A stretch of DNA of 64,000 nt from Candidatus Acetothermia bacterium (lineage in GTDB: Bacteria > Bipolaricaulota > Bipolaricaulia > RBG-16-55-9 > JANLFV01). The translations under genes and the position numbers were made by a program. Location: positions 124,001 to 188,000 of the forward strand of contig JANLFV010000001.1 of the NCBI GenBank assembly GCA_024653345.1, read 5' to 3'. Of this stretch, positions 7,220 to 31,999 are shown piece by piece. The notes beneath the pieces were generated by a model, which worked only from the letters and a program-made list of their open reading frames with translations, was not told the origin of the DNA and made no database searches. Numbering within the stretch: the stretch's first letter is position 1; every line of letters starts with the position of its first letter.

Positions 7220-8326
7220 GGAGATGCCGAAATACTCGGTCGAGACCGCGATGCAGGGATGCATCGGGGTCAGGACATACCCGAGGAAGATGCTGTAGAA
7301 GATCACGGCAAAGACCGGCAGGGTCACCCCGGTTGCCCCGACGCCGAGGATGGGGATGATGATCGAGGCCGAGGCCTCGATCCGGCCCGTGATCAGCCCC
7401 AAGAGGAAGCCCCCGACCACGCCGAGGGCTGCCGGGGGGAGGGCCAGCCCGGCCAGGAGCTGGGGGGCCTCCGACCGCTGAAAGACGGCGATGAAGAAGA
7501 ACATCCCCAGGATCACCAGGCTGAAGCGCCAGACCCTCATCTTCTTCCCCACTGCAAGGAGGTCCCTCCCGCTCAGCCGGCCGAAGCTGGCCACGAGGAG
7601 GAGGCTGATCGAGACCCCGGCGAGGGTCCCCAGCTCGCGGACCGGCAGGGCGAGGGTGCTCTCGAGGATCAGGTCCGTGACCGGGGCAGCCAGGAGGGCC
7701 CCCAGAGGGAGCAAGAGCCCCCTCAGCGAGAACGAGCCGGGATAGTCCATCCGGCCCTCGACTCTCCGCAGCAGGAAGAGGTAGCCGAGCAGGATCGAGA
7801 GCAGGCATAGCGGCAAGAGATACGGAATCACGTGATAGATCTCCAAGCCGGCGACCTTGGCTGAGGCGATCAGCGCCGGGCCGAGAGGATAGACCAGGAA
7901 GAGGACATGTCTGAACCAGACATTGACCGCGGCCTGGAGGGCTCGATCGGTCTCCCCGCCGCCGCGCTCGACGAGCGGCGCGGAGAGGAGCGCTCCGCCA
8001 GGCATGGGGAGCATCCCGACGATCGCGGGGGCGAAGGCGAGAAAGGCCCTCCGGCCGATCCGCATGTTCCTGACCAGCCCCTCCATCTGGCCCGAGTCCT
8101 CCAGCCCGCCGCCGATCAGGGGGATGATCGCCACGACCAAGGCCAGGAGCAAGATCCCCGGATCACGGAAGAGCCCGAGGAGTGCCGCCCCGACCTGCTC
8201 GGGCGAGAGGGCGAGGAAGCCGAACACTATCGCCGCGCTGAAGAGCGCGACATACAGCCTCCACCGCGCCAGCCCCAAGAGCACCGCTACCGCGAGGAGC
8301 AGGCCGAGCCAAGTGCGGAGTTCCAT
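7136..8326 (-). CDS. DUF401 family integral membrane transporter
   Basis: 396 aa, almost entirely hydrophobic, with about ten predicted membrane helices. The motif MLPMPGGALLSAPLV and the overall length match the DUF401 family, a member of the ion-transporter-like membrane proteins with no assigned substrate. The start codon lies one base beyond the stop of the upstream M24-fold gene, so the two form an operon. The 3' end overlaps the convergent rsmD by 84 bp. Pairing with a peptidase-fold protein suggests uptake or efflux of a small organic acid or peptide product, which is inference only. Confidence 0.8.
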   Translation of the reverse strand: MELRTWLGLLLAVAVLLGLARWRLYVALFSAAIVFGFLALSPEQVGAALLGLFRDPGILLLALVVAIIPLIGGGLEDSGQMEGLVRNMRIGRRAFLAFAPAIVGMLPMPGGALLSAPLVERGGGETDRALQAAVNVWFRHVLFLVYPLGPALIASAKVAGLEIYHVIPYLLPLCLLSILLGYLFLLRRVEGRMDYPGSFSLRGLLLPLGALLAAPVTDLILESTLALPVRELGTLAGVSISLLLVASFGRLSGRDLLAVGKKMRVWRFSLVILGMFFFIAVFQRSEAPQLLAGLALPPAALGVVGGFLLGLITGRIEASASIIIPILGVGATGVTLPVFAVIFYSIFLGYVLTPMHPCIAVSTEYFGISLRAFLGRLALPAGLALAAAAVLAVLLY

Positions 8327-8327
8327 C

Positions 8328-9491
8328 TCAGACCGTCAGGCTCCCCAGGTCCCGGGGGTAGTCGGTTAAGACCTCGACCCCTTCCTCGGTGATCAAGATC
8401 GTATCGCTGTGGCGGTAGCCGCCGTGGCCGGGGATGTAGATCCCCGGCTCGATGGAATAGACCTGGCCGGGGCGCATCTCGCCCTCGCTGTTCCGGTCGA
8501 TGAACGGCGGCTCATGCGCCGCGAAGCCGAGGTGGTGGCCGGTGTGGTGGCGAAGGTAGGGCTCCCTCCCCTGCGCGACGAGGAAGCCGTGGACGGCCCG
8601 GTCGACCTCGGCCAAGGGGACCCCGGGGCCGCTCCGCTCGAGCCCGAGCTGCTGGGCCTCGAGCATGATCTCGAAGAAACGGCGCTGCTCGGCCGTCGGC
8701 TCCCCCACGATGAGGGTCCGCTCGAGCTCACTACAATAGCCCCAGATGTCCGCGCTCGCGCCGGTGATCAAGAGGTCGCCGGGCTGGATCTTCCGGTTCA
8801 GGCTCATCGCGTGCGGGAGGGCCGTCCGCTCGCCGCTGATCAGCCCGGCCTCGGCGGGGAACCCGCCGCGCATGTGGCCGCCGTATTCCGGCCCTAGGGC
8901 CGCGAGCATCTCCCGGCTCGCCTCGTATGAGGCGCGCAGGCCGAGCTCGAGCTCGCTCAGCCCTACCTGAATGAGCTCTTGGAGCTTGCGATGGGCCAAT
9001 GCGCCCCACTTGGCCGACTCGCGGATCAGCTCGAGCTCCGCTGGGCTCTTGACCAGCCAGAGGTCGTCGATCAGCTTGGGCTCGACCTTCACCTCAGCCC
9101 GGACCAGCTCGGAGAGCTTCGGCCCCTCATACCCCCAGATCCCGGGGTAGCCGTCGCTGTCGGCCACGATGCGCTTGGCCCCTTTGAGCAGGCTGGCTAA
9201 GAGCCGAAGCGGCGGCTCCGCGCCGGGATACTCGAAGTAGTGATGGACCTCGTCGATCAAGGGGCAGGCCTGGGCCGGCTCGAGCTCGAGCCGGGGGATG
9301 AAGGCTACGAGCCTCTTCTCATCGACGATCAACGCCACCGGCCGCTCGGTGGCCAAGAGATGGTAGCCGCAGAGCCAGGCGATCCGCTTGGCACTGAACA
9401 AGACGAGCCGGTCCGCCCCGCGCTCATCCAGCCGCTCCCGGACCCGCCCGATCCGGGCAAGATACTCTTTCTCTTCAATCTTCAGCCCCAT
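8328..9491 (-). CDS. M24 family (Xaa-Pro peptidase/creatinase fold) protein with altered metal ligands
   Basis: 387 aa with the two-domain prolidase layout: an N-terminal creatinase-like domain (about 10-145) and a C-terminal pita-bread domain (about 155-380). The His ligand (HHTGHHLGF) and one Glu (SIEPGIYIPG) are present. The other metal positions are changed: the DxG position reads TGAS, SDxTRT reads SELERT, and the final RxED reads RHSD. Three of five ligands therefore differ from metal-dependent aminopeptidases. Creatinase shows that this fold can work without metal, so a non-metallo hydrolase acting on a small amidine or peptide substrate is possible. The start has a good site (GAGGAGG). 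It heads an operon with the DUF401 permease. Confidence 0.8.
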   Translation of the reverse strand: MGLKIEEKEYLARIGRVRERLDERGADRLVLFSAKRIAWLCGYHLLATERPVALIVDEKRLVAFIPRLELEPAQACPLIDEVHHYFEYPGAEPPLRLLASLLKGAKRIVADSDGYPGIWGYEGPKLSELVRAEVKVEPKLIDDLWLVKSPAELELIRESAKWGALAHRKLQELIQVGLSELELGLRASYEASREMLAALGPEYGGHMRGGFPAEAGLISGERTALPHAMSLNRKIQPGDLLITGASADIWGYCSELERTLIVGEPTAEQRRFFEIMLEAQQLGLERSGPGVPLAEVDRAVHGFLVAQGREPYLRHHTGHHLGFAAHEPPFIDRNSEGEMRPGQVYSIEPGIYIPGHGGYRHSDTILITEEGVEVLTDYPRDLGSLTV

Positions 9492-9568
9492 CTGCGCCTC
9501 CTCAGATCAGCGCGAGATTGTAGCCCGAGGCTCATCTCAAGTCCAATGCGGTTCACGCCAGGAGAGGT

Positions 9569-10732
9569 TCACTTGAACGCCGAGAGCCCGGTGATCGCCT
9601 CCCCCAGGATCAGGGTGTGGATCTCGTGGGTCCCCTCGTAGGTCTTGACCGCCTCGAGGTTCATCAGGTGGCGGACCGCCTGGTAGTCCAGGGTGATCCC
9701 GTTCGCCCCGAGGATCTCCCGGGCCGAGCGGGCGACCATCTGGGCCATCGCCACATTATTCCGCTTGGCGAGCGAGATCTGGACATGATCGGCCCGGCCT
9801 TCCTCCTTGAGCTGGGCCAGCCGGAAGACCAAGAGCTGGGCCTTGGTGATCTCGGTGAGCATCTCCGCCAGCTTCTCCTGGATCAGTTGGAAGGAGCCGA
9901 TCGGCCTCCCGAACTGGACCCGCTCGAGTGCGTAAGCCCTGGCCTCCTCATAGCAGGCTAAGGCCGCTCCGACCGCCCCCCAGGCGATCGAATACCGGGC
10001 CTGGTTGAGGCACATCAATGCCGGCTTCAGCCCTTGAGCCTGAGGGAGCATGTTCTCCGCGGGGATGCGGCAGTCGGTGAAGACGAGCTCGCCGGTGTCC
10101 GAGGTTCGGAGGGACATCTTATGCTCGATCTTGGCCTGGGTGAACCCCGGAGTCCCCCGCTCGACGAGGAAGCCACGAATCCCCTCATCAGTCCTGGCCC
10201 AGACTAGAGCCACATCTGCTAGGGTCGCATTAGTGATCCAGGTCTTGACCCCGTTCAGGACATAATAATCCCCGTCGCGGTCGGCCCGGGTCTGGAGCCC
10301 CCCGGGGTTTGAGCCGAACTCCGGCTCGGTCAGCCCGAAGCAGCCCACGGCCTCGCCCCTGGCTAGCCTAGGGAGCCACCTTTCTTTTTGCTCCTCCGAG
10401 CCGAAGGTGTAGATCGGCCACATCACCAGGCCGCCCTGGACCGAGGCGAAGCTCCGGATAGCGGAGTCGCCCCGCTCGAGCTCCTCCATCACCAGGCCAT
10501 AGGAGAGTTCATCAACACCGGCCGCGCCGTAGCCCTCGAGGTTGGCCCCCAAGAAGCCGAGTTCCCCGAGCCTGGGGATCAACTCCGTGGGGAACCGCCT
10601 TACCTCGAAGGCCCCCTTGATGATCGGGAGGACCTCCTCATCGACGAACTCGCGGGCCGTCTTGCGGATCAGCCGCTGCTCCTCGTTCAGCAGGGAATCG
10701 AGCTCATAAAGATCGGCCCCTCTGAAGCCCAT
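9569..10732 (-). CDS. gcdH: glutaryl-CoA dehydrogenase
   Basis: Acyl-CoA dehydrogenase family flavoenzyme, 387 aa. It follows glutaryl-CoA dehydrogenases closely: RSFASVQGGLVMWPIY, GCFGLTEPEFGSNPGG, the C-terminal NLEAVKTYEGTHEIH with the catalytic Glu in TYEGTH, and ILGEAITGLSAF at the end. It should oxidise and decarboxylate glutaryl-CoA to crotonyl-CoA in lysine, hydroxylysine or glutarate breakdown. I chose ATG 10732 because GGAGGTG lies 6 nt upstream; a TTG 30 bp further upstream is open but has no ribosome site. No ETF genes are nearby. The promoter overlaps the 3' end of the tRNA-Glu gene. Confidence 0.88.
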   Translation of the reverse strand: MGFRGADLYELDSLLNEEQRLIRKTAREFVDEEVLPIIKGAFEVRRFPTELIPRLGELGFLGANLEGYGAAGVDELSYGLVMEELERGDSAIRSFASVQGGLVMWPIYTFGSEEQKERWLPRLARGEAVGCFGLTEPEFGSNPGGLQTRADRDGDYYVLNGVKTWITNATLADVALVWARTDEGIRGFLVERGTPGFTQAKIEHKMSLRTSDTGELVFTDCRIPAENMLPQAQGLKPALMCLNQARYSIAWGAVGAALACYEEARAYALERVQFGRPIGSFQLIQEKLAEMLTEITKAQLLVFRLAQLKEEGRADHVQISLAKRNNVAMAQMVARSAREILGANGITLDYQAVRHLMNLEAVKTYEGTHEIHTLILGEAITGLSAFK

Positions 10733-10766
10733 CGCCCACCTCCAGGTAGGAAGCTCGCTCAAGGGG

Positions 10767-10796
10767 AGTATAAGCTAAGGCGGGTGGCGGTCCCAA
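10767..10796 (-). promoter_or_regulatory. probable gcdH promoter overlapping the tRNA-Glu 3' end
   Basis: On the minus strand: TTGGGA (10796-10791), an 18-bp spacer and TATACT (10772-10767). The -35 hexamer lies within the acceptor stem of tRNA-Glu. Confidence 0.45.
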
Positions 10797-10860
10797 GGGG
10801 ATTCGAACCCCTGTTTCCGGCTTGAGAGACCAGTGTCCTAGGCCGCTAGACGATGGGACC
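10785..10860 (-). tRNA. tRNA-Glu(CTC)
   Basis: 76 nt with a seven-pair acceptor stem (GGTCCCA/TGGGACC), anticodon loop CTCTCAA (anticodon CTC), a T arm with GGTTCGAATCC, discriminator G and an encoded CCA. It lies 21 bp downstream of tRNA-Gln in the same direction. Confidence 0.95.
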
Positions 10861-10881
10861 TCTAAGGGAGGCCGCGCCTCC

Positions 10882-10955
10882 TGGCTGGGAGAGGAGGATT
10901 CGAACCCCCACTAACAGGTCCAGAGCCTGTCGTCCTACCGTTAGACGATCTCCCA
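10882..10955 (-). tRNA. tRNA-Gln(CTG)
   Basis: 74 nt with acceptor TGGGAGA/TCTCCCA, anticodon stem ACAGG/CCTGT around loop CTCTGGA (anticodon CTG), T-arm GGTTCGAATCC and an encoded GCCA 3' end. It is first in a two-tRNA transcript with tRNA-Glu. Confidence 0.95.
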
Positions 10956-10966
10956 ATCCGGCCCTA

Positions 10967-10995
10967 ATCTTACCGGAGGGGGCAGTTCTTGTCAA
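10967..10995 (-). promoter_or_regulatory. promoter of the tRNA-Gln/tRNA-Glu transcript
   Basis: Minus strand: consensus TTGACA (10995-10990), a 17-bp spacer and TAAGAT (10972-10967), ending 11 bp before the tRNA-Gln 5' end. Confidence 0.75.
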
Positions 10996-11018
10996 ACCCT
11001 TCCCGTCTCGACCTGAGC

Positions 11019-11048
11019 TTGACACCCCCGCGCGGAGAGGATTAGACT
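11019..11048 (+). promoter_or_regulatory. promoter of the MEMO-yicC-gmk-acpS operon
   Basis: TTGACA (11019-11024), an 18-bp spacer and TAGACT (11043-11048), followed by GGAGGG and the ATG at 11071. Confidence 0.65.
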
Positions 11049-11070
11049 CGATCGGAAGGGGAGGGATGGG

Positions 11071-11922
11071 ATGGCCGTCCGCAGACCATATGTCGCCGGG
11101 CTCTTCTATGCCGGGAGCGAGGCCCAGCTCCGCAGGCAGCTCGAGTGGTGCTTCTCCTGCGAGCTCGGCCCGGGGAAGCTCCCTGAGCCGCCGAGCCGCG
11201 AGCTGGCTGGCCCGGTGGCGCTCGTCCTCCCCCATGCGGGCTACCAGTATTCCGGGCCGGTCGCGGCCTGGGGGTTCGCCTGGCTCGCCAGACAGGGCCG
11301 GCCCGCGGCGGCCGTGATCGTCGGGACGAACCATACCGCCTATGGCGGGCGGGTCTCGATCATGACCTCCGGGCTCTGGGAGACGCCTCTGGGGGCAGCG
11401 GAGATCGACGCCCCGCTGGCGGAGTCAATCATGAGCCTCAACCCTGCCGTTGCCCTCCGCCCCGAGGCCTTCGCCGCGGAGCACTCAGTCGAGGTCCAGC
11501 TCCCCTTTCTCCAGTATCTCTTCGGCAAGCTCAAGTTCGTCCCGCTCGTCTCGCGCGACCAGGAGCTCGAGACCTCGAGGGAGCTGGGGCGGGCGCTCGC
11601 CGAGGCGCTGAAGGGCCGGCCGATCGCGCTCATCGCCAGCAGCGACTTCACCCACTACGAGCCGCACGAGGCCGCGAGCCGGAAGGACCGGGCCGCGATC
11701 GAGCGGATCAGGGAGCTCGACCTCGAGGGCTTCTACGAGGTTATCGCGCGCCATTCCATCACCATCTGCGGGTATGGCCCGATCGCGGCGGTGATGGAGG
11801 CCGCTCAGCTCCTGGATCTGGGAACTGTGGAGTTGCTCAAGTATGCCACCTCGGGGGAGCTCGGCGGGGACCGCTCGGCGGTCGTGGGCTACGCCAGCAT
11901 CTCCTTCGGAGGGGCGCGATGA
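11071..11922 (+). CDS. amrB: MEMO1 family protein (AmmeMemoRadiSam system protein B)
   Basis: 283 aa. The MEMO signature is present throughout: RRPYVAGLFYAG at the N-terminus, VLPHAGYQYSGP, VGTNHTAYGG, EHSVEVQLPFLQYL, ASSDFTHYEPHEAA and SITICGYGPIAAVMEAA. The fold is related to extradiol dioxygenases. Family members are linked with a radical SAM enzyme and an AMMECR1 protein. The matching radical SAM gene (amrS) is in this window at 45.7-46.8 kb, 34 kb away rather than adjacent. It is the first gene of an operon and overlaps yicC by 4 bp (ATGA). The biochemical reaction is not settled. Confidence 0.9.
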   Translation: MAVRRPYVAGLFYAGSEAQLRRQLEWCFSCELGPGKLPEPPSRELAGPVALVLPHAGYQYSGPVAAWGFAWLARQGRPAAAVIVGTNHTAYGGRVSIMTSGLWETPLGAAEIDAPLAESIMSLNPAVALRPEAFAAEHSVEVQLPFLQYLFGKLKFVPLVSRDQELETSRELGRALAEALKGRPIALIASSDFTHYEPHEAASRKDRAAIERIRELDLEGFYEVIARHSITICGYGPIAAVMEAAQLLDLGTVELLKYATSGELGGDRSAVVGYASISFGGAR

Positions 11923-12776
11923 TCCGGTCCATGACCGGCTTCGGGCGGGGGAGCGCCAGCTCCGGTGCCTGGATGGTCGAGGCGAGGCTGAAGACGGTTA
12001 ACCATCGCTACCTCGAACTGCAGCTCCGCGGGCTGGAGGGGCGCGAGACGCTGGAGATCGCGGCGCGACGGCTCCTCGAGGGAGCGTTTGCCCGTGGCCG
12101 GATTGAGCTCGCAGTGGAGCTGGAGAGCGCTGGCGAGGGGGGCCTGATCTTCGACCTCGAGACCGCCCGGCGCTACTACCGCTCGCTGAACGGGCTGTGC
12201 AACGAGCTAGGACTCGAGGACTGGGTCAGGCTGAGCGACCTCATCGCCTTGGGAGCCCTCCGTCCCCAGGAGGACGAGGAGGAGCTCTGGCTGCTCCTGG
12301 AGAGGGCGATCAACGAGGCGATCGCCTCGGTCCAGGAGATGCGGGCTCGCGAGGGCGAGCACCTTCAGCGAGATCTGGAGGGAGCGCTGGGGCGATTGAG
12401 CCAGATACTGGATCAGGTCGAGGCCCGTGCCCCTGAGGTGAAGGTCTACTACCGCGAGAAGCTGCGCGAGCGCGTGGAGGAGCTATTGCAATCGCCGATA
12501 GTTCGGGAGCGGCTCGAGGAGGAGGTCGTGCTCTTCGTCGAGCGAGCTGACATCTCTGAAGAGTTGGTGAGGCTGCGGAGTCACCTGGCGGGGGCGCGCG
12601 CTGCGTTCGACTCGCCCGAGCCCGCGGGGCGAGTCCTCGACTTCCTGGCTCAGGAGATGGCCCGCGAGGCGAACACGATCGCGGCCAAGGCCCGCGACAC
12701 GGAGATCCTCCGCCAGACCGTGGCGATGCGGGCGGAGATCGAGAGGCTAAGAGAGCAGGTGAGGAACATTGAGTAG
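11919..12776 (+). CDS. yicC: YicC family endoribonuclease-like protein
   Basis: 285 aa. It opens with the family's MIRSMTGFGRG and contains KTVNHRYLELQLR, and ends with the conserved FLAQEMAREANTIAAKARDTEI and RNIE. YicC proteins are conserved ribonucleases (YloC in Bacillus). The order yicC - remA-like - gmk is typical of many bacteria. It overlaps the MEMO stop by 4 bp and the next gene by 8 bp, so translation is probably coupled. Confidence 0.92.
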   Translation: MIRSMTGFGRGSASSGAWMVEARLKTVNHRYLELQLRGLEGRETLEIAARRLLEGAFARGRIELAVELESAGEGGLIFDLETARRYYRSLNGLCNELGLEDWVRLSDLIALGALRPQEDEEELWLLLERAINEAIASVQEMRAREGEHLQRDLEGALGRLSQILDQVEARAPEVKVYYREKLRERVEELLQSPIVRERLEEEVVLFVERADISEELVRLRSHLAGARAAFDSPEPAGRVLDFLAQEMAREANTIAAKARDTEILRQTVAMRAEIERLREQVRNIE

Positions 12777-13011
12777 GGAGCTGATTGCTCTGGGTCCGCA
12801 GAGCCTGGTGTTGCGCGACCGAGTTGTGCTGATCGCCCGGCCGGACACAGTCCCGCTCCAGCGGCTGATCCGGCGCTACGAGGGGGAGGGGAGGCTGATC
12901 GACCTCACCCAGGGCCGGGGAGCCCGCGCGGCGGTCATCACTGACGCTGGGTTCATCATCCTCTCGCCGCTCCGGCCGAAGACGATCGCCGAGCGGTTCC
13001 TCGAGGAATGA
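12769..13011 (+). CDS. RemA-like / DUF370 small DNA-binding regulator
   Basis: 80 aa. It matches the DUF370/RemA family in size and in the core QRLIRRYEGEGRLIDLTQG, AAVITDAGFIILSPLRP and TIAERFLEE. In Bacillus, RemA is an oligomeric transcription activator of matrix genes. The start is TTG at 12769, inside the end of yicC, and the stop overlaps the gmk ATG (ATGA). The non-ATG start and the overlaps suggest low, coupled translation. Confidence 0.85.
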   Translation: MSRELIALGPQSLVLRDRVVLIARPDTVPLQRLIRRYEGEGRLIDLTQGRGARAAVITDAGFIILSPLRPKTIAERFLEE

Positions 13012-13580
13012 CCCCGCGGCTCTTCGTCCTGAGCGGCCCCTCAGGCGTGGGGAAGACGACGATTGTCCGGGCCGTGCTGGAGAGGATCGGGAACCTGGAG
13101 TTCTCCGTCTCCTGCACTACCCGCCCGCCGCGAGCTGGGGAGAGAGAAGGGGTAGACTACTACTTCATCTCGCCCCAGCAGTTCGCGGCCCTGGTCCGGG
13201 CCGGGCAGTTCCTCGAGCACGCCTGGGTCTACGGCCATCGCTACGGGACGCCCTTGGCGGAGGTGGAGCAGCGCTTGCAGCGGGGGAAGAGCGTGCTCTT
13301 GGACATCGACACCCAGGGAGCGGCAGCGGTCCACCGGCGGAGGGCCAGGCTCGGCTTCCCCACGAGCTTCATCTTCGTCCTCCCCCCGTCGCGGGAGGAG
13401 CTCCTCCGCCGCCTTGAAGGGAGGAAGAGCGAGACGGTCGAGGAGCTGCGGCGGCGACTCGAGGAGGCCTGGGAGCAGACCGCGGCCGGGATGTGGTTCG
13501 ACTATCTCGTGATCAACCGCCATCTGGAGGAGGCGATCTCATGGGTCACGCGGCTGATCCGACTGGAGTTATTAGGATAG
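13008..13580 (+). CDS. gmk: guanylate kinase
   Basis: 190 aa, normal length. It phosphorylates GMP to GDP. The P-loop is LSGPSGVGKTTI. The GMP-binding region has SCTTRPPRAGEREGVDYYF and FLEHAWVYGHRYGTP, and the lid region is ERRLEGRKSE-like (RLEGRKSETVEELRRRL). It overlaps the upstream gene by 4 bp and the downstream acpS by 40 bp. Confidence 0.95.
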   Translation: MTPRLFVLSGPSGVGKTTIVRAVLERIGNLEFSVSCTTRPPRAGEREGVDYYFISPQQFAALVRAGQFLEHAWVYGHRYGTPLAEVEQRLQRGKSVLLDIDTQGAAAVHRRRARLGFPTSFIFVLPPSREELLRRLEGRKSETVEELRRRLEEAWEQTAAGMWFDYLVINRHLEEAISWVTRLIRLELLG

Positions 13581-13993
13581 GGCTGGATCTCGTGGAGATC
13601 GGGCGGATCGAGCGACTGGTCGACCGCTGGGGCGAGCGATTCCTGAAGAGGGTCTTCACCGAGGAGGAGCTACGCTCCTCTCTCGGGCGGCGGAGGAGCG
13701 CGGAGCACCTGGCCGCGCGGTTCGCGGCGAAGGAGGCCCTCATCAAAGCCGCGGGGCTGCCGTCCGGCTGGCGGAGGATCGAGATCTCGAACAGGCGCTC
13801 GGGCGAACCTTACTTCTCCCAACTTCCTGAAGGCCTGGCCCCGGAACGGGTCCGACTGAGCCTCTCCCACGCCGCTGGGGTGGCGATGGCCATCGTCCTG
13901 ATCGAGGCCAGTCTCCCTAGAAGGCCCGTTGCTCCTCCCCGCGCCGGAGCTGGGCGATGTTCGTCCGATGGCGGAAGAGGGCGAGCAGGGTGA
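13541..13993 (+). CDS. acpS: holo-[acyl-carrier-protein] synthase
   Basis: It transfers phosphopantetheine from CoA to acyl carrier protein. The family core is clear: IRIGLDLVEIGRIERL with the metal-binding Asp, HLAARFAAKEALIKA, and LSLSHAAGVAMAIV. ATG 13541 is preceded by GGAGG and lies 40 bp inside gmk. The conserved domain ends near 13910; the last 25 or so residues (rich in R, G and P) lie antisense to plsY and look like read-through. It is the last gene of the MEMO-yicC-gmk operon. Confidence 0.9.
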   Translation: MGHAADPTGVIRIGLDLVEIGRIERLVDRWGERFLKRVFTEEELRSSLGRRRSAEHLAARFAAKEALIKAAGLPSGWRRIEISNRRSGEPYFSQLPEGLAPERVRLSLSHAAGVAMAIVLIEASLPRRPVAPPRAGAGRCSSDGGRGRAG

Positions 13994-14504
13994 GAGCGGC
14001 CATCAGAACTACCCCCCAGAGATCATGGGTGAAGAGCCACACCGTCAGCGGAGAGAGGGAAAGGGCCGCGAGCGAGGCGACCGAGGCAAATCGCGTCCGC
14101 CACAACGCCAGAGCCCAAAGGGCGATCGAGATCAAGAGCGCCTCCCAGGAGAGGGCGGCCAGGAGGCCGAGGGAGGTCGAGACCCCCTTCCCCCCGCTGA
14201 ACCTGATGAAGATGCTCCAGTCGTGGCCCACGACCGCCAGCCCCGCCAAAAGGAGCGGCCAAGCCCCGGTCAAGCCCCAATGGCTGGCCAATAGCCCGGC
14301 GGCCAGCCCCTTCCCCAGGTCGAGGGCCAGGGCCAGAGGATAGTAGCGCCGGCCGAGGACCCGTCCGACATTCGTCGCCCCGACGTTCCCGCTCCCGTGC
14401 TCGCGGATGTCGATCCCCTTCAGCCGGCCGATGATGTAGCTGCAGGGGATCGCCCCGAGGAGATAGAAGACAGCCGCAACGAGGAGGCCTTCGAGGAGCC
14501 TCAA
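13917..14504 (-). CDS. plsY: acyl-phosphate:glycerol-3-phosphate acyltransferase
   Basis: 195 aa membrane enzyme that makes lysophosphatidic acid, the first step of phospholipid synthesis. Motifs: LGAIPCSYIIGRLKGIDIR, HGSGNVGATNVGRVLG, GKGLAAGLLAS, and FSGGKGVSTSLG for the acyl-phosphate site. Five or so hydrophobic segments. It acts before PlsC, which is encoded 2.5 kb away on the same strand. It overlaps the convergent acpS 3' end by 77 bp. Confidence 0.95.
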   Translation of the reverse strand: MRLLEGLLVAAVFYLLGAIPCSYIIGRLKGIDIREHGSGNVGATNVGRVLGRRYYPLALALDLGKGLAAGLLASHWGLTGAWPLLLAGLAVVGHDWSIFIRFSGGKGVSTSLGLLAALSWEALLISIALWALALWRTRFASVASLAALSLSPLTVWLFTHDLWGVVLMAALTLLALFRHRTNIAQLRRGEEQRAF

Positions 14505-14568
14505 CGCCCGATCACTCCTGTCACCCGATCCCGCAGCGCCACAGCGCGCAGCCGCCGGACCGACGGCT

Positions 14569-16209
14569 CTAGGAGAGCCTCTTCCCCTGGAGGTGCTCGC
14601 GCATGGTCAGCATCTCGTGGCCCTGGTCTTCCTTATAGAGCTCTTGCGGCGCGAGGTTGCGCATCGAGAGCCGGACCTGCCGCTTCTCCTCGTTGATCCC
14701 GATGATGCGGGCCTCGACCTCATCCCCGACAGCGAGGACCTCGTGGGGCGTGGCGATCCGGTCCTCGGAGATCTCCGAGACATGGATCAGCCCCTCCACA
14801 TCTGGGGTGATCTGCATGAAGGCCCCGAAGTCCTTGATCTCGATGATCTTCCCCCGCACGGTCGAGTTGAGGGAATACTCCTCGAGGAACTTGTGCCAGG
14901 GGTCCTCGCGCAGCTCCTTGAGGGAGAGGCGGATCTTCCGCCGAGCCTTGTCGACCTTCAGGACCTTCGCCTCGACCTCGTCGCCATCCTTGAGGAGCTC
15001 CTCCGGCCGGCTGACCCGCTCCCAGCTCATCTCGGAGATGTGCAACAGCGCCTCGACGCCCTCCTCCAGCTCGACGAAGGCCCCGAAGTCGGCCAGCTTC
15101 GTGACCCTTCCCCTGACGATCGACCCCTGCGGGTAATGCCGGTCGACCGCATCCCAGGGGTCTGGCAGGGCCCGCTTCAATGAGAGCGAGATGCGGTGCG
15201 ACTTCTCGTCGCACCCCAGCACGACCACCTCGAGCTCATCCCCTTCGGAGACAACCTGGCGCGGGTCCTTCGGAAAGCCCCAAGAGAGCTCCGAGATGTG
15301 GACCAGGCCCTCGACATCCGGCTCGAGCTCCAGGAAGGCCCCGAACTCGGTGATGCTCACGACCTTCCCCTTCACCCTCTTCCCGACAGGGTAGCGCTGG
15401 GCGAGCCCCTCCCAAGGGTTGGGCCGGAGCCGCTTGATCGAGAGGGAGATCCGCCCCTTCTCCGGGTCGAAGCCCAAGACGCGGACGGGGATCTTCTGCC
15501 CCACCTTGTAGTTGTGGGCCGGGAAGGGGACGTCCTTCCAGGAGATCTCCGAGCGGTGGACGAGCCCCTCGAAGCCCCCGATGTCCACGAAGATCCCGAA
15601 ATCGACGATCGACTTGACCACTCCCTCGCGGACCTGCCCTTCCTCGAGGCTGGCGAAGAGCTTGGCCTTCCGCTCCTCCTCCAACTTCTCCAGATACCGC
15701 TTGTGGGAGACGACGAGGTTCTTCTCCCAGCGGTCGAGCTCGATGATGATGAAGTCCGTCTCGCGCCCGCGCAGCTTCTCAATGTCCCCGGGGAGATCGT
15801 TGCCCAGGTGGGAGCCGGGGAGGAAGGCCCTGATCCCGGAGAGGTTCACATGGTAGCCGGCGCCGGAGACCTCGGCCTCGATCCTGCCCCGGACCGGAAA
15901 GCCCTTGTGATAGGCCTCCTCCAGCCGGGAGATCGACCGCTCGTAGAGGGCCTGCTTCTCCGAGACATAGACCGTCCCCTCTTCTTCGTCGATGTAGGTT
16001 ACGAGGACCTCGAGCTCCTCGCCCTCGGTCACCTTCCCATTCCTGAAGGACGAGAGCTCGCTCCAGCGCAGGATCCCCTCGGTCTTGTAGCCGATGTCCA
16101 CGGAGATCACCTGATCCGAGATCTGGAGGACCTTGCCCCTGATGATGTCACCCCGCGTGTAGGTATGCACGTCACTGTTCGCGACGAACTCTTCCATCTT
16201 CCTTGCCAT
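14569..16209 (-). CDS. rpsA: 30S ribosomal protein S1 (six S1 domains)
   Basis: 546 aa, near the length of the E. coli protein. Six OB-fold S1 repeats start at about residues 17, 103, 187, 275, 361 and 447; the C-terminal four are the canonical type (FGAFVELEEGVEALLHISE and the like). S1 binds mRNA on the 30S subunit and helps initiate on structured or weakly Shine-Dalgarno-led messages. It is the last gene of the ispE-cmk-plsC-ispH-rpsA run, overlapping ispH by 38 bp. A functional S1 matters here because several genes appear to lack ribosome sites altogether. Confidence 0.92.
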   Translation of the reverse strand: MARKMEEFVANSDVHTYTRGDIIRGKVLQISDQVISVDIGYKTEGILRWSELSSFRNGKVTEGEELEVLVTYIDEEEGTVYVSEKQALYERSISRLEEAYHKGFPVRGRIEAEVSGAGYHVNLSGIRAFLPGSHLGNDLPGDIEKLRGRETDFIIIELDRWEKNLVVSHKRYLEKLEEERKAKLFASLEEGQVREGVVKSIVDFGIFVDIGGFEGLVHRSEISWKDVPFPAHNYKVGQKIPVRVLGFDPEKGRISLSIKRLRPNPWEGLAQRYPVGKRVKGKVVSITEFGAFLELEPDVEGLVHISELSWGFPKDPRQVVSEGDELEVVVLGCDEKSHRISLSLKRALPDPWDAVDRHYPQGSIVRGRVTKLADFGAFVELEEGVEALLHISEMSWERVSRPEELLKDGDEVEAKVLKVDKARRKIRLSLKELREDPWHKFLEEYSLNSTVRGKIIEIKDFGAFMQITPDVEGLIHVSEISEDRIATPHEVLAVGDEVEARIIGINEEKRQVRLSMRNLAPQELYKEDQGHEMLTMREHLQGKRLS

Positions 16210-17059
16210 CGTTCACACCACCCATCAATCGCTCAATCTCTCCTTGGACTGCCCGTAGAGACGTCTCGGGGGTGGAGGTGCCGCCCGAGATCCCGATCCG
16301 ATGCTTCCCCATCAACCACCTCCTCTCCAGCTGGTTCGGACTCTCTATATGATAGCATCCAGTATAGCGCGCTGCAATCTCGGCGAGCCGGGCGGTGTTA
16401 GAGCTGTTCCGGCCCCCGATTACGAGCATGAGCTCCACCCGGCAGGCCGCCTCCCGGACGGCCTCCTGGCGACGGAGGGTCTCCTGGCAGAGGGTGTTGA
16501 CCGCCTTCAGCTCCCGGACCTGTCTCGCGGCCGCAGCGACCACGGCCGTGAACTGCTCGGGGAGGAGCGTCGTCTGGGAGAGGACTCCCAGGCGATCGCC
16601 CGGCCGGAAGGATAGCTCCTCCGGGGTAAGGACGACCTCCGCCCTCCCGCCGACCGCACCCAGCAGGCCGGCGAGCTCCGGATGCTCCCGGTGGCCGACG
16701 AGCACCAGCCGATAGCCCTCGGCGGCCAGGCGGAGCGCCTCCGAGTGGGCAGCCAGCACCCGGGGACAGGTTCCGTCAACGATCTGGTAGCCTCGCTGCT
16801 TGACCTCTTCCAGGATCTGGGGCGGGAGCCCGTGAGCGCGGATGAGAAACCGCTTGCCAGCCCCCTCAATCGGGAGCTCCTCGAGGCTGGAGACGGTCCT
16901 CAATCCGAGCGCGGCGAGGCGAGCCACCTCTTCCAGGTTATGGATCAGCTCGCCGAAGCAGTAGAGCTGGCCCCGCTCGCGGAGGAGGCGCTCGACCAGC
17001 CCGACAGTCCGCCGCACCCCGGAGCAGAAGCCGTATGGCCGGACCAGCTCGATCTCCAT
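16172..17059 (-). CDS. ispH: 4-hydroxy-3-methylbut-2-enyl diphosphate reductase
   Basis: 295 aa [4Fe-4S] enzyme that makes IPP and DMAPP in the last step of the MEP pathway. The three cluster cysteines are in YGFCSGVRRTV, VDGTCPRV and VNTLCQETLRRQ. Other signatures are IRAHGLPP, VVGHREHPE-like (LVGHREHPEL) and GGRNSSNTARL. The family's ASTP loop reads SGGTSTPETSL. A single base is shared between its start and the plsC stop. IspE is encoded three genes upstream. Confidence 0.95.
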   Translation of the reverse strand: MEIELVRPYGFCSGVRRTVGLVERLLRERGQLYCFGELIHNLEEVARLAALGLRTVSSLEELPIEGAGKRFLIRAHGLPPQILEEVKQRGYQIVDGTCPRVLAAHSEALRLAAEGYRLVLVGHREHPELAGLLGAVGGRAEVVLTPEELSFRPGDRLGVLSQTTLLPEQFTAVVAAAARQVRELKAVNTLCQETLRRQEAVREAACRVELMLVIGGRNSSNTARLAEIAARYTGCYHIESPNQLERRWLMGKHRIGISGGTSTPETSLRAVQGEIERLMGGVNDGKEDGRVRREQ

Positions 17060-17694
17060 CAGCGCCCGTCCCCGGTGTCGATCCGCTCCATCATCATCAG
17101 CGTCAGCCGAGCCTCCCGCTCCCTTCTATCAAGACCAGGTGGAAGTTCTTCAGCCAATTCCTGAAGGCGGAACGGGCGGCCGATGTAGATCTCGGCGCGG
17201 GGGAAGCCGAAGGGATAGCGAGGCGGATAGGGCCCGTGAGTGACGATCTTCACAGGGAGGAGCTTCTGCCCGGTCTTCTCGGCAAACCGGACCACGCCGA
17301 TCTTCGGCGCGGCCCCCTTCGTCGTCCCCTCAGGGAAGATTCCGACGAGCTGGCCTGCTGAGATCGCCTGCAGGACCCGGCGATAATCGGTGGGCCTGAA
17401 GTTCTCGCGGTCGATGGGAATGGCGTAGAGCAAGACGAAGATCCCGATAAGGGGGTTCTCTCGGATCAGGCTCCGCCGGGCCACGAACGAGATCCTCCGC
17501 CGAGCGCCGCAGGCCACGGCGATGATGGGGATATCCCAATAGCTCCGGTGGCGCGCGATGAGGATCGCCCCGTCATCGGGGATCTTCTCGCGGCCCTCGA
17601 CCCGCAAGCGGAAGAGGAGCTTACAAGCGAGCGCAACGACCGCCACGCTCACCAGGTAGAGGAGATCCTTCGCTAGTCTTCCCAGCCGGTTCAT
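17059..17694 (-). CDS. plsC: 1-acyl-sn-glycerol-3-phosphate acyltransferase
   Basis: 211 aa. It acylates lysophosphatidic acid to phosphatidic acid. The catalytic HX4D motif is RHRSYWD, and the substrate motif is FPEGTTKG. An N-terminal hydrophobic segment (LVSVAVVALACKLLF) anchors it in the membrane. The start lies 74 bp inside the 3' end of cmk. The order cmk-plsC-ispH-rpsA matches clusters known from clostridia and other bacteria. Confidence 0.93.
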   Translation of the reverse strand: MNRLGRLAKDLLYLVSVAVVALACKLLFRLRVEGREKIPDDGAILIARHRSYWDIPIIAVACGARRRISFVARRSLIRENPLIGIFVLLYAIPIDRENFRPTDYRRVLQAISAGQLVGIFPEGTTKGAAPKIGVVRFAEKTGQKLLPVKIVTHGPYPPRYPFGFPRAEIYIGRPFRLQELAEELPPGLDRREREARLTLMMMERIDTGDGR

Positions 17695-18310
17695 CTTTTT
17701 CCAAGGCCTCTCTCACCGCCGCGAGGGCTCGTGCAACGACCTCTTCCACACTCAGGCCGTCGGTGGCAATGATGATCGCGTCAGGGGCCGGGTCGAGCCG
17801 ACCGAAGTCGTGGTCCCGCGCGTCTCGTTCTGCCAACTCCTGCTCGACCTCTTCGCGCGAGCCGCCCCGCTCGCGAGCCCGCCGCCTCGCCCGCTCCTCA
17901 AGCGAGGCCTCGAGGAAGATCTTCACTTCTGCCTCGGGGAGGACGACCCGGCCGATGTCCCGCCCCTCCATCACCACATTCCTCCCCTGGGCCAGTTGGC
18001 GTTGCTTCTCGATCAAGAAGGCCCGCACGCTCGGGTCCCTGGCGATCTCCGAGGCGCGGAGGTCCACCTCTTCATTATACAGGTTCGGCGTGACGTCCTC
18101 GCCGTTGAGCAGGACCCGCTCATCTGCCAGGTCAAGCTCCATCCCCTCGAGCGTCAACCCCTGGCACAGACCCCAGGCCACGGCGCGATACATCGAGCCG
18201 GTGTTGATGAACTGAAACCCGAGCCGCCGCGCCAGCAGCCGCCCCACGGTCGTCTTCCCCGACCCGGCGGGGCCGTCGATCGCGATCCAGATGGCCTTAG
18301 CAGCACTCAT
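17621..18310 (-). CDS. cmk: cytidylate kinase
   Basis: 229 aa. It phosphorylates CMP/dCMP. P-loop AIDGPAGSGKTTVGR, the family's FINTGSMYRAVAW, and VVMEGRDIGRVVLP. The C-terminal 25 residues (rich in E, P, G) extend past the usual end and overlap the plsC start. It overlaps ispE by 14 bp. Confidence 0.94.
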   Translation of the reverse strand: MSAAKAIWIAIDGPAGSGKTTVGRLLARRLGFQFINTGSMYRAVAWGLCQGLTLEGMELDLADERVLLNGEDVTPNLYNEEVDLRASEIARDPSVRAFLIEKQRQLAQGRNVVMEGRDIGRVVLPEAEVKIFLEASLEERARRRARERGGSREEVEQELAERDARDHDFGRLDPAPDAIIIATDGLSVEEVVARALAAVREALEKDEPAGKTSEGSPLPGERGGRCARL

Positions 18311-19136
18311 AGCTTCTCTCGATCGTCTCCGTCAAGATGGCCTGGCCGGGGAGGCCGGCCGCCCGCGCGGCCAAGGCTGCGGCCCGCTCCCGCTCGCTGA
18401 AGCCGGCAAACCAAGCGGGCCCGCTCCCGCTCATCCCCCAGAACTCCGCGCTAGCCCCCCGAAGAAAGTCGCGATAGTCCTCAAGCTCCGGGCGGAGAGC
18501 GAGCGCGGCTCGCTGGAGGTCGTTCCTCAGCAGCCCGGGGATGTCGTCACCCGAATCCACGCTCTGATGCCCAATCTTGTCGAACGCGGCGTAGACCTCG
18601 GGAGTGGGGAGGGGAAAGGGCGGGACGAGCAATACGAGATGATACAGCGGTAGCCGAGGGAGCCGCTTCACCCTCTCACCGCGCCCGCTCACGGAGCAGG
18701 TCCCGCCCTCGAAGAAGAAGGGGACATCGCTCCCGAGCTCCAGGCCCAGGGCCTTCAGCTCATCCTTCCCGAAGCCCAGGCCCAACAGCTCATTGAGCCC
18801 GGCGAGCGTGGCCGCGCCGTCGCTGCTCGCGCCGCCCAAGCCCGCGCCGGCGGGGATGCCCTTCGATAGGCGGATGTGGACCCCCTTTCGGCAGCCGGCT
18901 CGCTCCAAGATCAGCCGGGCCGCACGATAGGCGAGGTTCTCCGCGGCGGGCAGGCCCAGGTCCGGCTCGACCTCCAGGGTCACCCCCTCCGCCCCAGGCC
19001 GGGGCTCGAGCACCAGCTCGTCGGCGAGAGAGATGCTCTGCATCACAGTCTGGATCTGGTGGTAGCCGTCCTCTCGCCTTCCGAGGACCCTCAGGCCGAG
19101 GTTAGTCTTGGCATAGGCCCGGATGCGCACGCGCAT
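18297..19136 (-). CDS. ispE: 4-diphosphocytidyl-2-C-methyl-D-erythritol kinase
   Basis: 279 aa GHMP kinase of the MEP isoprenoid pathway. N-terminal AYAKTNLGLRVLGRREDGYH and the ATP loop PAGAGLGGASSDGAA are diagnostic. I place the start at ATG 19136, which has GAGGTGG 6 nt upstream; an open extension of 14 codons upstream lies within hutI and lacks homology. The start is 35 bp inside the 3' end of hutI, so translation may be coupled to it. Confidence 0.93.
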   Translation of the reverse strand: MRVRIRAYAKTNLGLRVLGRREDGYHQIQTVMQSISLADELVLEPRPGAEGVTLEVEPDLGLPAAENLAYRAARLILERAGCRKGVHIRLSKGIPAGAGLGGASSDGAATLAGLNELLGLGFGKDELKALGLELGSDVPFFFEGGTCSVSGRGERVKRLPRLPLYHLVLLVPPFPLPTPEVYAAFDKIGHQSVDSGDDIPGLLRNDLQRAALALRPELEDYRDFLRGASAEFWGMSGSGPAWFAGFSERERAAALAARAAGLPGQAILTETIERSYECC

Positions 19137-29405: not shown

Positions 29406-29631
29406 GTAGCTCGCCTCATGATCCGCCGCCCTTCGCGCCAGACCTCGCGGGCCAGCCGAGTTGTTTCAGGCTGGGCAGTTCAGCAGCTTCAGAATCCACG
29501 GTCACCTCGATCATGACTCCCGCTCGGTCCTCAAGCTGGAGAAGGTCGTAGCCGGGGATCTTGACTCTGCCTCTCCTTCGGAGATATAGTCACTGACCGT
29601 CCGAGTCTCTCGGCCCAAGGAGGTGGGGAAG
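29406..29631. other. 226-bp gap with possible gene remnant on the minus strand
   Basis: The minus strand is open from about 29587 to a TGA at 29416, with protein-like sequence around an internal ATG at 29514 (MIEVTVDSEAAELPSLKQLG) but no ribosome site or upstream start. It could be the end of a decayed small gene. The plus strand holds only the AAGGAGG site of the next gene. Confidence 0.3.
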
Positions 29632-30744
29632 ATGGCGAAGGCCGGGAAGCTGACGCGAAGGGAGTTCCTCAAGGGTGCGGGCGCCGCCGCATTAGGCCTG
29701 GCTCTGTCAGACATACTGCCAAGAAGGGCTTTAAGCCAGGCTGCGGGGTGCCAGCCGTATCGAGGCATTGCACCGACGGATTGGGATTATAGTGCTCGAA
29801 CAGTCATACCGCGGCGTGCCGAAATCCGCGAACACTGGCTGGATGAGATAAAAGAGCTGGGTGCCGACAGCGTGGAGATAACCATTCCTGTTAGTAGAGG
29901 TCCTGATCACCAAGTCGGATACCCTACCGAGTATCCCCCCTACTGGGAGCCGTGGGACAGCACGGTGCATGATGAAGGCATAAAGCGCTATGTCAGGCAG
30001 GCACAGGCGCGAGGGTTTAAAGTCATCCTTGACATCCCGAGCTTCCTGGGAAGTAGATATCCCCGTCCCCAGCCCTTCGACCTCGACCTGTTCTATTCCA
30101 ACCTCGAAACGATGGCGTTGAAGTGGGCCGAGATCGCCGAAGAGCTCGGTGTTGAAGGCTATTGTCCTGAAGGCGAGTTCGCATTCGAAGCTTCTCTGGG
30201 GCTGTCACCTTCCTTTACTAGGCCAGATGGATATGTGTCATTCCATACCCCGAGGCTCGCTGCATGGATTAAGCAGTTGATTCCCAAGGTCAGGGAGAGG
30301 TATTCCGGCAAGATAATCATTCAGGAAGATCCTTATGAGACACCGGATATCGATTTCGACGGGGCAGACTACATCGGGTTACACCTCCATGTGAAGGAGG
30401 GCGAGAGATATGTTCCCGGCCAGACAGTGCAAAACTGGCGAAGATATCTGAGAAACCGAATCACCGCGGCCCAGCAAGCCGCCCAACGCGACAACTGTAG
30501 GGTGATGATTACAGAGGCGAGTTTCGGGATGATTCCAACGAACGGATACACTTCGCCAGACAATACCGTCGTAAACGAACAACAGCAGAGAGAATTGTGC
30601 GAAGCCTTCTTCCAAGAGGCTTGGGGAAAAACGGATGGGATATTTCCCTGGTCGTGGGGTTCTGAACCCGAGTTTAGGAGATCTCTTGCAGTTACAGATC
30701 GTCCAGCCGAAGAGGTCGTCCGGCGCTACTACCAGGGCTGCTGA
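29632..30744 (+). CDS. Tat-exported TIM-barrel glycosidase-like protein
   Basis: 370 aa. The N-terminus has a twin-arginine signal (LTRREFLKGAGAAALGLAL), so the folded protein should cross the membrane. The rest looks like a clan GH-A barrel similar to GH113 or other endo-glycosidases: candidate acid/base Glu in YCPEGEFAF, candidate nucleophile Glu in VMITEASFG, and an aromatic WSWGSEPEF near the end. Substrate unknown. ATG 29632 is 7 bp after AAGGAGG. GC content is visibly lower than in neighbours, suggesting transfer. Its last 175 bp (30570-30744) recur at 31718-31892 beyond a toxin-antitoxin-like pair. Confidence 0.75.
   Translation: MAKAGKLTRREFLKGAGAAALGLALSDILPRRALSQAAGCQPYRGIAPTDWDYSARTVIPRRAEIREHWLDEIKELGADSVEITIPVSRGPDHQVGYPTEYPPYWEPWDSTVHDEGIKRYVRQAQARGFKVILDIPSFLGSRYPRPQPFDLDLFYSNLETMALKWAEIAEELGVEGYCPEGEFAFEASLGLSPSFTRPDGYVSFHTPRLAAWIKQLIPKVRERYSGKIIIQEDPYETPDIDFDGADYIGLHLHVKEGERYVPGQTVQNWRRYLRNRITAAQQAAQRDNCRVMITEASFGMIPTNGYTSPDNTVVNEQQQRELCEAFFQEAWGKTDGIFPWSWGSEPEFRRSLAVTDRPAEEVVRRYYQGC
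30570..30744 (+). repeat. 175-bp direct repeat, copy A (3' end of the glycosidase gene)
   Basis: 170 of 175 bases match copy B at 31718-31892, with no gaps, and both end exactly at the TGA. The five differences are two third-position synonymous changes and one codon swap (AGG to GCT, Arg to Ala). Confidence 0.95.
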
Positions 30745-30772
30745 GCCAGCTTGGCCGGGCTGGTCCGTCCCC

Positions 30773-30801
30773 TTGCACCTCGAACGCTCGCCCGCTAAGA
30801 T
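30773..30801 (+). promoter_or_regulatory. promoter of the PIN toxin-antitoxin-like cassette
   Basis: TTGCAC (30773-30778), a 17-bp spacer and TAAGAT (30796-30801), followed by GGGGAG and the ATG at 30832. Confidence 0.6.
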
Positions 30802-30831
30802 GCGGGCGGGGTATCCGAGGGGAGATTAGCG

Positions 30832-31116
30832 ATGGAGAAGACGACAATTCTGCAATACCTGAGCGAGCTCGAGAGGAAGCTCGCTGAGCTGCGGAGGGCC
30901 GTGGAGAGGATGCCGGAGGAGCCTGGCGCGCCGGAGGCAGTGCGATTCGTGGACAAGCGTGCGCTCGCTTCCCTGATCGCCCGCTCCTTCCGCAAGATGG
31001 GTATTCAGCCTCAGCCGGTCGGGGCGGAGAGGCTCCAGGAGTTGATCGCCGCCTGCGGGGTGGAGCCGGAGGCGAACGCCTTCAGCCGCGCGATCATCGC
31101 GCTGCGCGAGGGATAG
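30832..31116 (+). CDS. small protein, probable antitoxin partner of the PIN protein
   Basis: 94 aa, highly charged. The first 35 residues (ILQYLSELERKLAELRRAVE) form a likely coiled coil; the rest is alpha-helical in appearance (DKRALASLIARSFRKMG). It is not a family I recognise. Its stop lies 3 bp before the PIN-domain gene, and both sit behind one promoter in a block bracketed by a duplicated gene end, so an antitoxin role is inferred from position. Confidence 0.55.
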   Translation: MEKTTILQYLSELERKLAELRRAVERMPEEPGAPEAVRFVDKRALASLIARSFRKMGIQPQPVGAERLQELIAACGVEPEANAFSRAIIALREG

Positions 31117-31119
31117 CCC

Positions 31120-31611
31120 TTGCCTAACCAGTTCTTCTGGGACGCGAGCGCCCTGGTGAAGCGCTACGCGCCGGAGAGTGGCACCCAGTTGGTAAACCTC
31201 CTCTTCTCCCGGGTGAAGCTCGAGCGGATGATCTCCCTGAGCCTCGCGGTCAGCGAGGTGCTCTCCGTCTTCGTGCGGAAGAGGAACGACGGGCTCATCA
31301 CCGACGCCATCTTCTCCCAGGCGCTAGCAGAGCTCCGGGCTGAGGTGCTCGACTCCCCCTTCAGGCTGGCCCCCTTAGAGGACCGGCTTGTCTTCGCTTC
31401 GCACCCGCTGATCGTCCAGCACTCGCTCAACGCCACGGACGGGCTCGTCCTGCGGGCCGCCCTCGAGCTGCGGACCGCCTTGCGCCGCGCGGGGGACGAT
31501 CTGGTCCTGATCGCTTCCGATCAGCGGTTGCTGCGGGCAGCGGACGCTGAGGGGCTCCGGGCCTTCAACCCTGAGACCGGCTCGCAGTCAGAGCTCGAGC
31601 TGCTCATGTGA
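31120..31611 (+). CDS. PIN-domain ribonuclease, VapC-like toxin
   Basis: 163 aa. PIN acidic residues are visible: Asp in FFWDASALVKRYAPE, Glu in VSEVLSVFVRK, Asp in NATDGLVLRAAL and Asp in VLIASDQRLLRAA. Such domains are metal-dependent ribonucleases, and the VapC group cleaves tRNA or rRNA when freed from its antitoxin. Size and the DASALVKRY start suit the VapC group. It starts with TTG at 31120, directly after the partner gene. Confidence 0.8.
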   Translation: MPNQFFWDASALVKRYAPESGTQLVNLLFSRVKLERMISLSLAVSEVLSVFVRKRNDGLITDAIFSQALAELRAEVLDSPFRLAPLEDRLVFASHPLIVQHSLNATDGLVLRAALELRTALRRAGDDLVLIASDQRLLRAADAEGLRAFNPETGSQSELELLM

Positions 31612-31717
31612 ACTCCCACCTCATTCGGAGCGCCCCTTCTCTTCTTGACTTGACCGGGCCTCAGATAGGATGCTAACCTGACGGAAAGGCAGGACTAAGT
31701 TGCGATATTATTACTCC

Positions 31718-31892
31718 CGTAAACGAACAACAGCAGAGAGAATTGTGCGAAGCCTTCTTCCAAGAGGCTTGGGGGAAAACGGACGGGATATTTCCCTGGT
31801 CGTGGGGTTCTGAACCCGAGTTTGCTAGATCTCTTGCAGTTACAGATCGTCCAGCCGAAGAGGTCGTCCGGCGCTACTACCAGGGCTGCTGA
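31718..31892 (+). pseudogene. displaced 3' end of the glycosidase-like gene (direct repeat, copy B)
   Basis: It encodes the last 57 residues of the 29632-30744 product and its stop, but no start or upstream coding sequence. The bases before it are unrelated to copy A; they include a TTGACT/TAGGAT-like pair at about 31650-31680. Unlike copy A it is followed by a terminator-like hairpin, so copy B may be the original gene end. Confidence 0.9.
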
Positions 31893-31916
31893 GGCCCCTT
31901 GAGCCAAGGGCCGTTT
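31893..31916 (+). terminator. terminator-like hairpin after copy B
   Basis: GGCCCCTTG and CAAGGGCC pair with one bulged C around a 3-nt loop, followed by GTTT. The T tract is short, so termination would be modest. Confidence 0.45.
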
Positions 31917-31999
31917 GCTACTGCAGGGCGAGCGCGGGCCGGATTGTCTACTGCGATGGCCTGCTCATCACCGCTCGATGGGGCCCCCCAGGGCTATGG
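31917..31999. other. remaining gap before the sugar permease 3' end
   Basis: No gene or structure seen between the hairpin and the convergent permease gene. Confidence 0.4.

Follow-up and report, generated by a model that had tools for sequence, protein, structure and literature searches.

The downstream copy of the 176-bp direct repeat that brackets a toxin–antitoxin-like gene pair in this stretch of DNA is most probably (at about 0.58) what remains of a second member of the neighbouring gene's glycosidase family, with the VapBC-like pair lying in the intergenic space and having arrived separately. The locus looks like an ordinary arrangement that merely resembles the scar of an inserted element. 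The window, i.e., the whole stretch of 64,000 nucleotides that was analysed (G000:C11:124001-188000), belongs to a draft genome of 1.71 Mb in 31 contigs, and all features of the window described below lie on its forward strand. It was compared with 100 genomes of the phylum, among which the genus is represented by one other genome (G001, 73% complete).

Repeat comparison places copy A at 30570..30745, the 3' end of a glycosidase gene (gene A), and copy B, a start-less 3' end fragment, at 31718..31893, with 171 matches over 176 bp, no gaps (97% identity) and a start-to-start spacing of 1148 bp. The first-pass annotation had described a gapless repeat of 175 bp with 170 matches at that same spacing; this description stands, and the full extent is reached once the G after TGA is counted. 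Its accompanying observations, that each copy runs up to the stop codon, that they differ by two silent changes and one codon swap, and that copy B has no start, are likewise borne out. The five mismatches fall in three places (GGA/GGG and GAT/GAC, both silent, and AGG/GCT, Arg to Ala), the exact runs measure 57, 8, 39, and 67 bp, and the ORF check found no in-frame ATG, GTG, or TTG start in copy B, which corresponds to the last 58 codons of a glycosidase-type gene. By length and identity, the repeat is far beyond chance, the next-best direct repeats in 11 kb being at most 44 nt long and mostly 70–80% alike.

Gene A (29623..30744), delimited by ORF and domain searches, encodes a GH113-like glycosidase of 373 aa with a TAT signal, and a promoter scan detected a promoter-like site (TTGACT-18-TATAGT) at 29561..29590. 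Its G+C content is 55%, versus 65% for the window. No close homologue of the glycosidase was found among the 100 genomes of the phylum, and the best match in a wider scan of genome contigs reached only 23%. Both the glycosidase and the gene pair are absent from the genus-mate (73% complete), and DNA alignment of the locus to that genome gave nothing beyond one 51-bp stretch at chance level.

A third copy of the glycosidase 3' end, overlooked by the first-pass annotation, opens contig C6. Same-genome searches recovered the last 19 glycosidase residues at the very start of C6 and the 5' part of a paralogue with 70% amino acid identity at the very end of contig C14. By sequence match, the last 55 bp of C14, where this paralogue runs off the contig, are identical to 30064..30118, and the first 55 bp of C6 are identical both to 30683..30737 in copy A and to 31831-31885 in copy B, the matches of both contigs to the window stopping exactly at 55 bp. 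These exact overlaps are probably the borders that a graph assembler operating at k=55 leaves at unresolved repeats, and since each of the two contigs extends exactly 55 bp into sequence that the window also contains, the glycosidase 3' end is multi-copy. The genome contains at least one further paralogue of gene A, distributed over the ends of these two contigs; most simply, a single gene spans C14 and C6, with its middle either collapsed into gene A or outside the bin. In the C6 copy (L010, C6, 1-173), the stop codon TGA reads CGA and the frame continues for 38 codons.

In a codon-level comparison, the bases identical between gene A and the C14 paralogue amount to ~95% in codons 15–55, ~60% in codons 55–151, and 100% from codon 152 to the contig end, the codon alignment thus delimiting a diverged block of gene A (29785..30063, ~60% nucleotide identity) with near-identical blocks on both sides. 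Therefore, sharp near-identical blocks arise in this glycosidase family without an inserted element. Both paralogues (29623-30744; L011 10532-11051) lie ~10 points below their surroundings in G+C, which suggests that the family may have been acquired from elsewhere. Contig C14, besides carrying the glycosidase paralogue, contains a stretch of 53% G+C (L011, 1794-5885) where several beta-helix-like ORFs stand in tandem, three or more of them sharing the near-identical terminal peptide CPPDYPWPPGFVKGP or a close variant.

The flanks of copy B bear probable traces of a second gene. Of the 106 bp that separate the stop codon of the PIN-domain gene from copy B (31612-31717), ~78 bp (31613..31690) can be aligned to the sequence preceding the C14 paralogue, including its TTGACTT and GATAGNAT box (TTGACTT...GATAGNAT...GAAAGG), and this stretch is probably a vestigial glycosidase promoter. 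The similarity was evaluated under three scorings against a background of 344 kb of the same genome (27,377 tiles) and 2000 dinucleotide shuffles. Under two of the three, none of the tiles scored as high against the C14 region, at most ~1e-4 of the 27,377 tiles did so against the copy-B region, and none of the 2000 shuffles did; under the stricter scoring, the similarity reached the 0.3–5% level only. Part of it could reflect a shared promoter consensus. The remaining 27 bp (31691-31717) match neither gene, and the sequence ahead of gene A is similar neither to that ahead of copy B nor to that ahead of the C14 paralogue. On the downstream side, alignment and flank test showed a hairpin and its flank (31894..31999) to be weakly similar to the sequence after the C6 copy, at the 0.3–2% level (about p=0.01) and not outstanding among tiles, a similarity that may be due to chance since several flank pairs were compared. 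This hairpin had been annotated as terminator-like; a G+C hairpin is indeed present, but the T run is absent. Together, the flank similarities are easier to reconcile with a second, self-promoted gene shortened by ~950 bp than with an element that carried in a 3' end.

Two other origins of the repeat were rejected. The template and variable repeats of a diversity-generating retroelement do not match the observed differences, which are A/G, T/C, and AGG/GCT and not confined to template adenines. A retro-copied mRNA end was discarded because the similarity does not extend past the stop codon and each of the three copies is followed by a different hairpin.

Between copies A and B lie only two ORFs, a putative antitoxin of 94 aa (30832..31116) and a PIN-domain toxin candidate of 163 aa (31120..31611). 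This agrees with the cassette content annotated at first pass; the promoter included in it is, however, weak (TTGCAC at 30773-30778, a spacer of 17 nt, and TAAGAT at 30796-30801) and was not detected by a consensus scan. Alignment with PIN homologues places the acidic positions E46, D107, and D134 as invariant and D8 as conserved except for E in one homologue. PF01850 is matched by five of the six PIN homologues, the window protein itself reaching only E 0.02, below the Pfam cut-off, and the profile of the family matches the solved protein PAE0151 (2fe1, E 1e-4), which we take to be a PIN protein. ORF and family searches of the 94-aa candidate gave no significant match in Pfam, NCBIfam, or PADLOC that would assign it to a DNA-binding antitoxin family such as AbrB, RHH, Phd, or HTH, and the AF2 models of both small proteins are of poor quality.

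The pair is conserved beyond this genome. On contig G012:C69, from another family of the same order, homologues of both genes are adjacent, with 46% and 66% identity, and in five further genomes of the class each related PIN gene has a small ORF directly upstream. With its acidic positions kept and its small upstream gene conserved, the pair is supported by comparative evidence as a probable VapBC-like toxin–antitoxin module, in line with the reading proposed at first pass. As in VapBC modules, the small gene lies 3 bp upstream of the PIN gene and the acidic D/E/D/D residues are conserved, whereas the 94-aa candidate falls outside known antitoxin families and the PIN gene falls under the Pfam cut-off. 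G012:C69 is called plasmid-like because RPA, ParB, RHH, and Phd/PIN_2 genes adjoin the pair; its stretch 8000-18831 (L063) carries an RPA-type initiator, ParB, a PLD-domain protein, an RHH gene, and a Phd/PIN_2 pair in addition to the pair related to that of the window. No glycosidase sequence was found beside it. Chromosomal toxin–antitoxin islets are known, e.g., ccdO157 in E. coli (PMC2654758), and the window resembles them in holding a lone pair amid unrelated genes with a patchy distribution among relatives, but differs in that the 3' end of a neighbour stands on both sides.

The first-pass annotation had favoured the insertion of a small element that supplied the gene with a new 3' end, much as islands integrate in tRNA genes or gene 3' ends and restore them with their own copy. 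Such a dedicated element would account for the full length of the gene and for the common stop codon of both copies. However, neither of the two ORFs in the 1.15 kb is a recombinase, the interval between the repeats is devoid of integrase and other mobility genes, the related pair lacks a glycosidase end on G012:C69, and the stretch before copy B, which looks like the promoter region of a paralogue, is not expected under this reading, all of which makes this origin very improbable. A Campbell-type event, in which recombination within the 3' end of gene A took up a small circle or transformed fragment carrying the pair and a 3' end from a different paralogue, is unlikely as well, even though an end–cassette–end order with a unit of 1148 bp is its expected product and homology for the crossover is available because the glycosidase 3' end is multi-copy in the genome. 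Against it, no second copy of the pair plus 3' end was found in the same genome, the viral contigs and plasmids searched contained no match to the pair or to the 3' end, and the promoter-like stretch before copy B is left unexplained. It is doubtful, too, that a recombinase-less toxin–antitoxin pair spreads by homologous exchange with the multi-copy glycosidase 3' end as landing site.

The order of gene A, pair, and copy B on C11 could also be a wrong path of the assembler through a multi-copy repeat. In favour of such an artefact, C14 and C6 both break off exactly 55 bp inside shared sequence, so the graph was unresolved at this point for at least two other paths. Nevertheless, the pair joins the repeat at unique sequence, for which no repeat has to be resolved, and ordinary reads are long compared with the exact stretches of 57 and 67 bp common to the copies, so that we regard an artefact as quite unlikely. 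The bracket is real in any path because the unique sequence of the pair directly abuts one 3' end and then another; which paralogue stands on the left, which flank stands on the right, and the long-range order through the repeat depend on the assembler.

On the remnant reading of copy B, the second glycosidase gene, with its own promoter, would once have stood downstream of gene A, and an internal deletion of ~950 bp would have taken away the start and the bulk of the coding region, leaving the promoter-like stretch and the last 58 codons. The VapBC-like pair would occupy the intergenic space from gene A to the remnant, most likely after a separate arrival, as with such modules, and, if active, its labile small protein would restrain the PIN ribonuclease as in other VapBC pairs. 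Recent duplication or gene conversion among paralogues would explain why the two 3' ends are 97% identical. The alternative named at first pass was decay of a tandem paralogue, and the promoter-like stretch before copy B fits it; against it, no full second gene was seen in any relative. Origin of the incoming end from a functional relative of the gene, as proposed at first pass, also fits, but gene conversion, of which gene A and C14 bear traces, fits equally. Pseudogene fragments and gene conversion among paralogues elsewhere likewise yield start-less, near-identical 3' fragments beside an intact gene and mosaic identity, although at this locus a toxin–antitoxin pair sits between fragment and gene.

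A decayed paralogue together with gene conversion can thus leave what looks like an insertion scar, and exact k-mer overlaps at contig ends can expose hidden extra copies. The locus adds a VapBC-like pair with an antitoxin candidate outside known families, the pair and the glycosidase remnant themselves being of known kinds. Should a repeated gene end prove to serve as landing site, toxin–antitoxin pairs would gain a recombinase-free route of spread.
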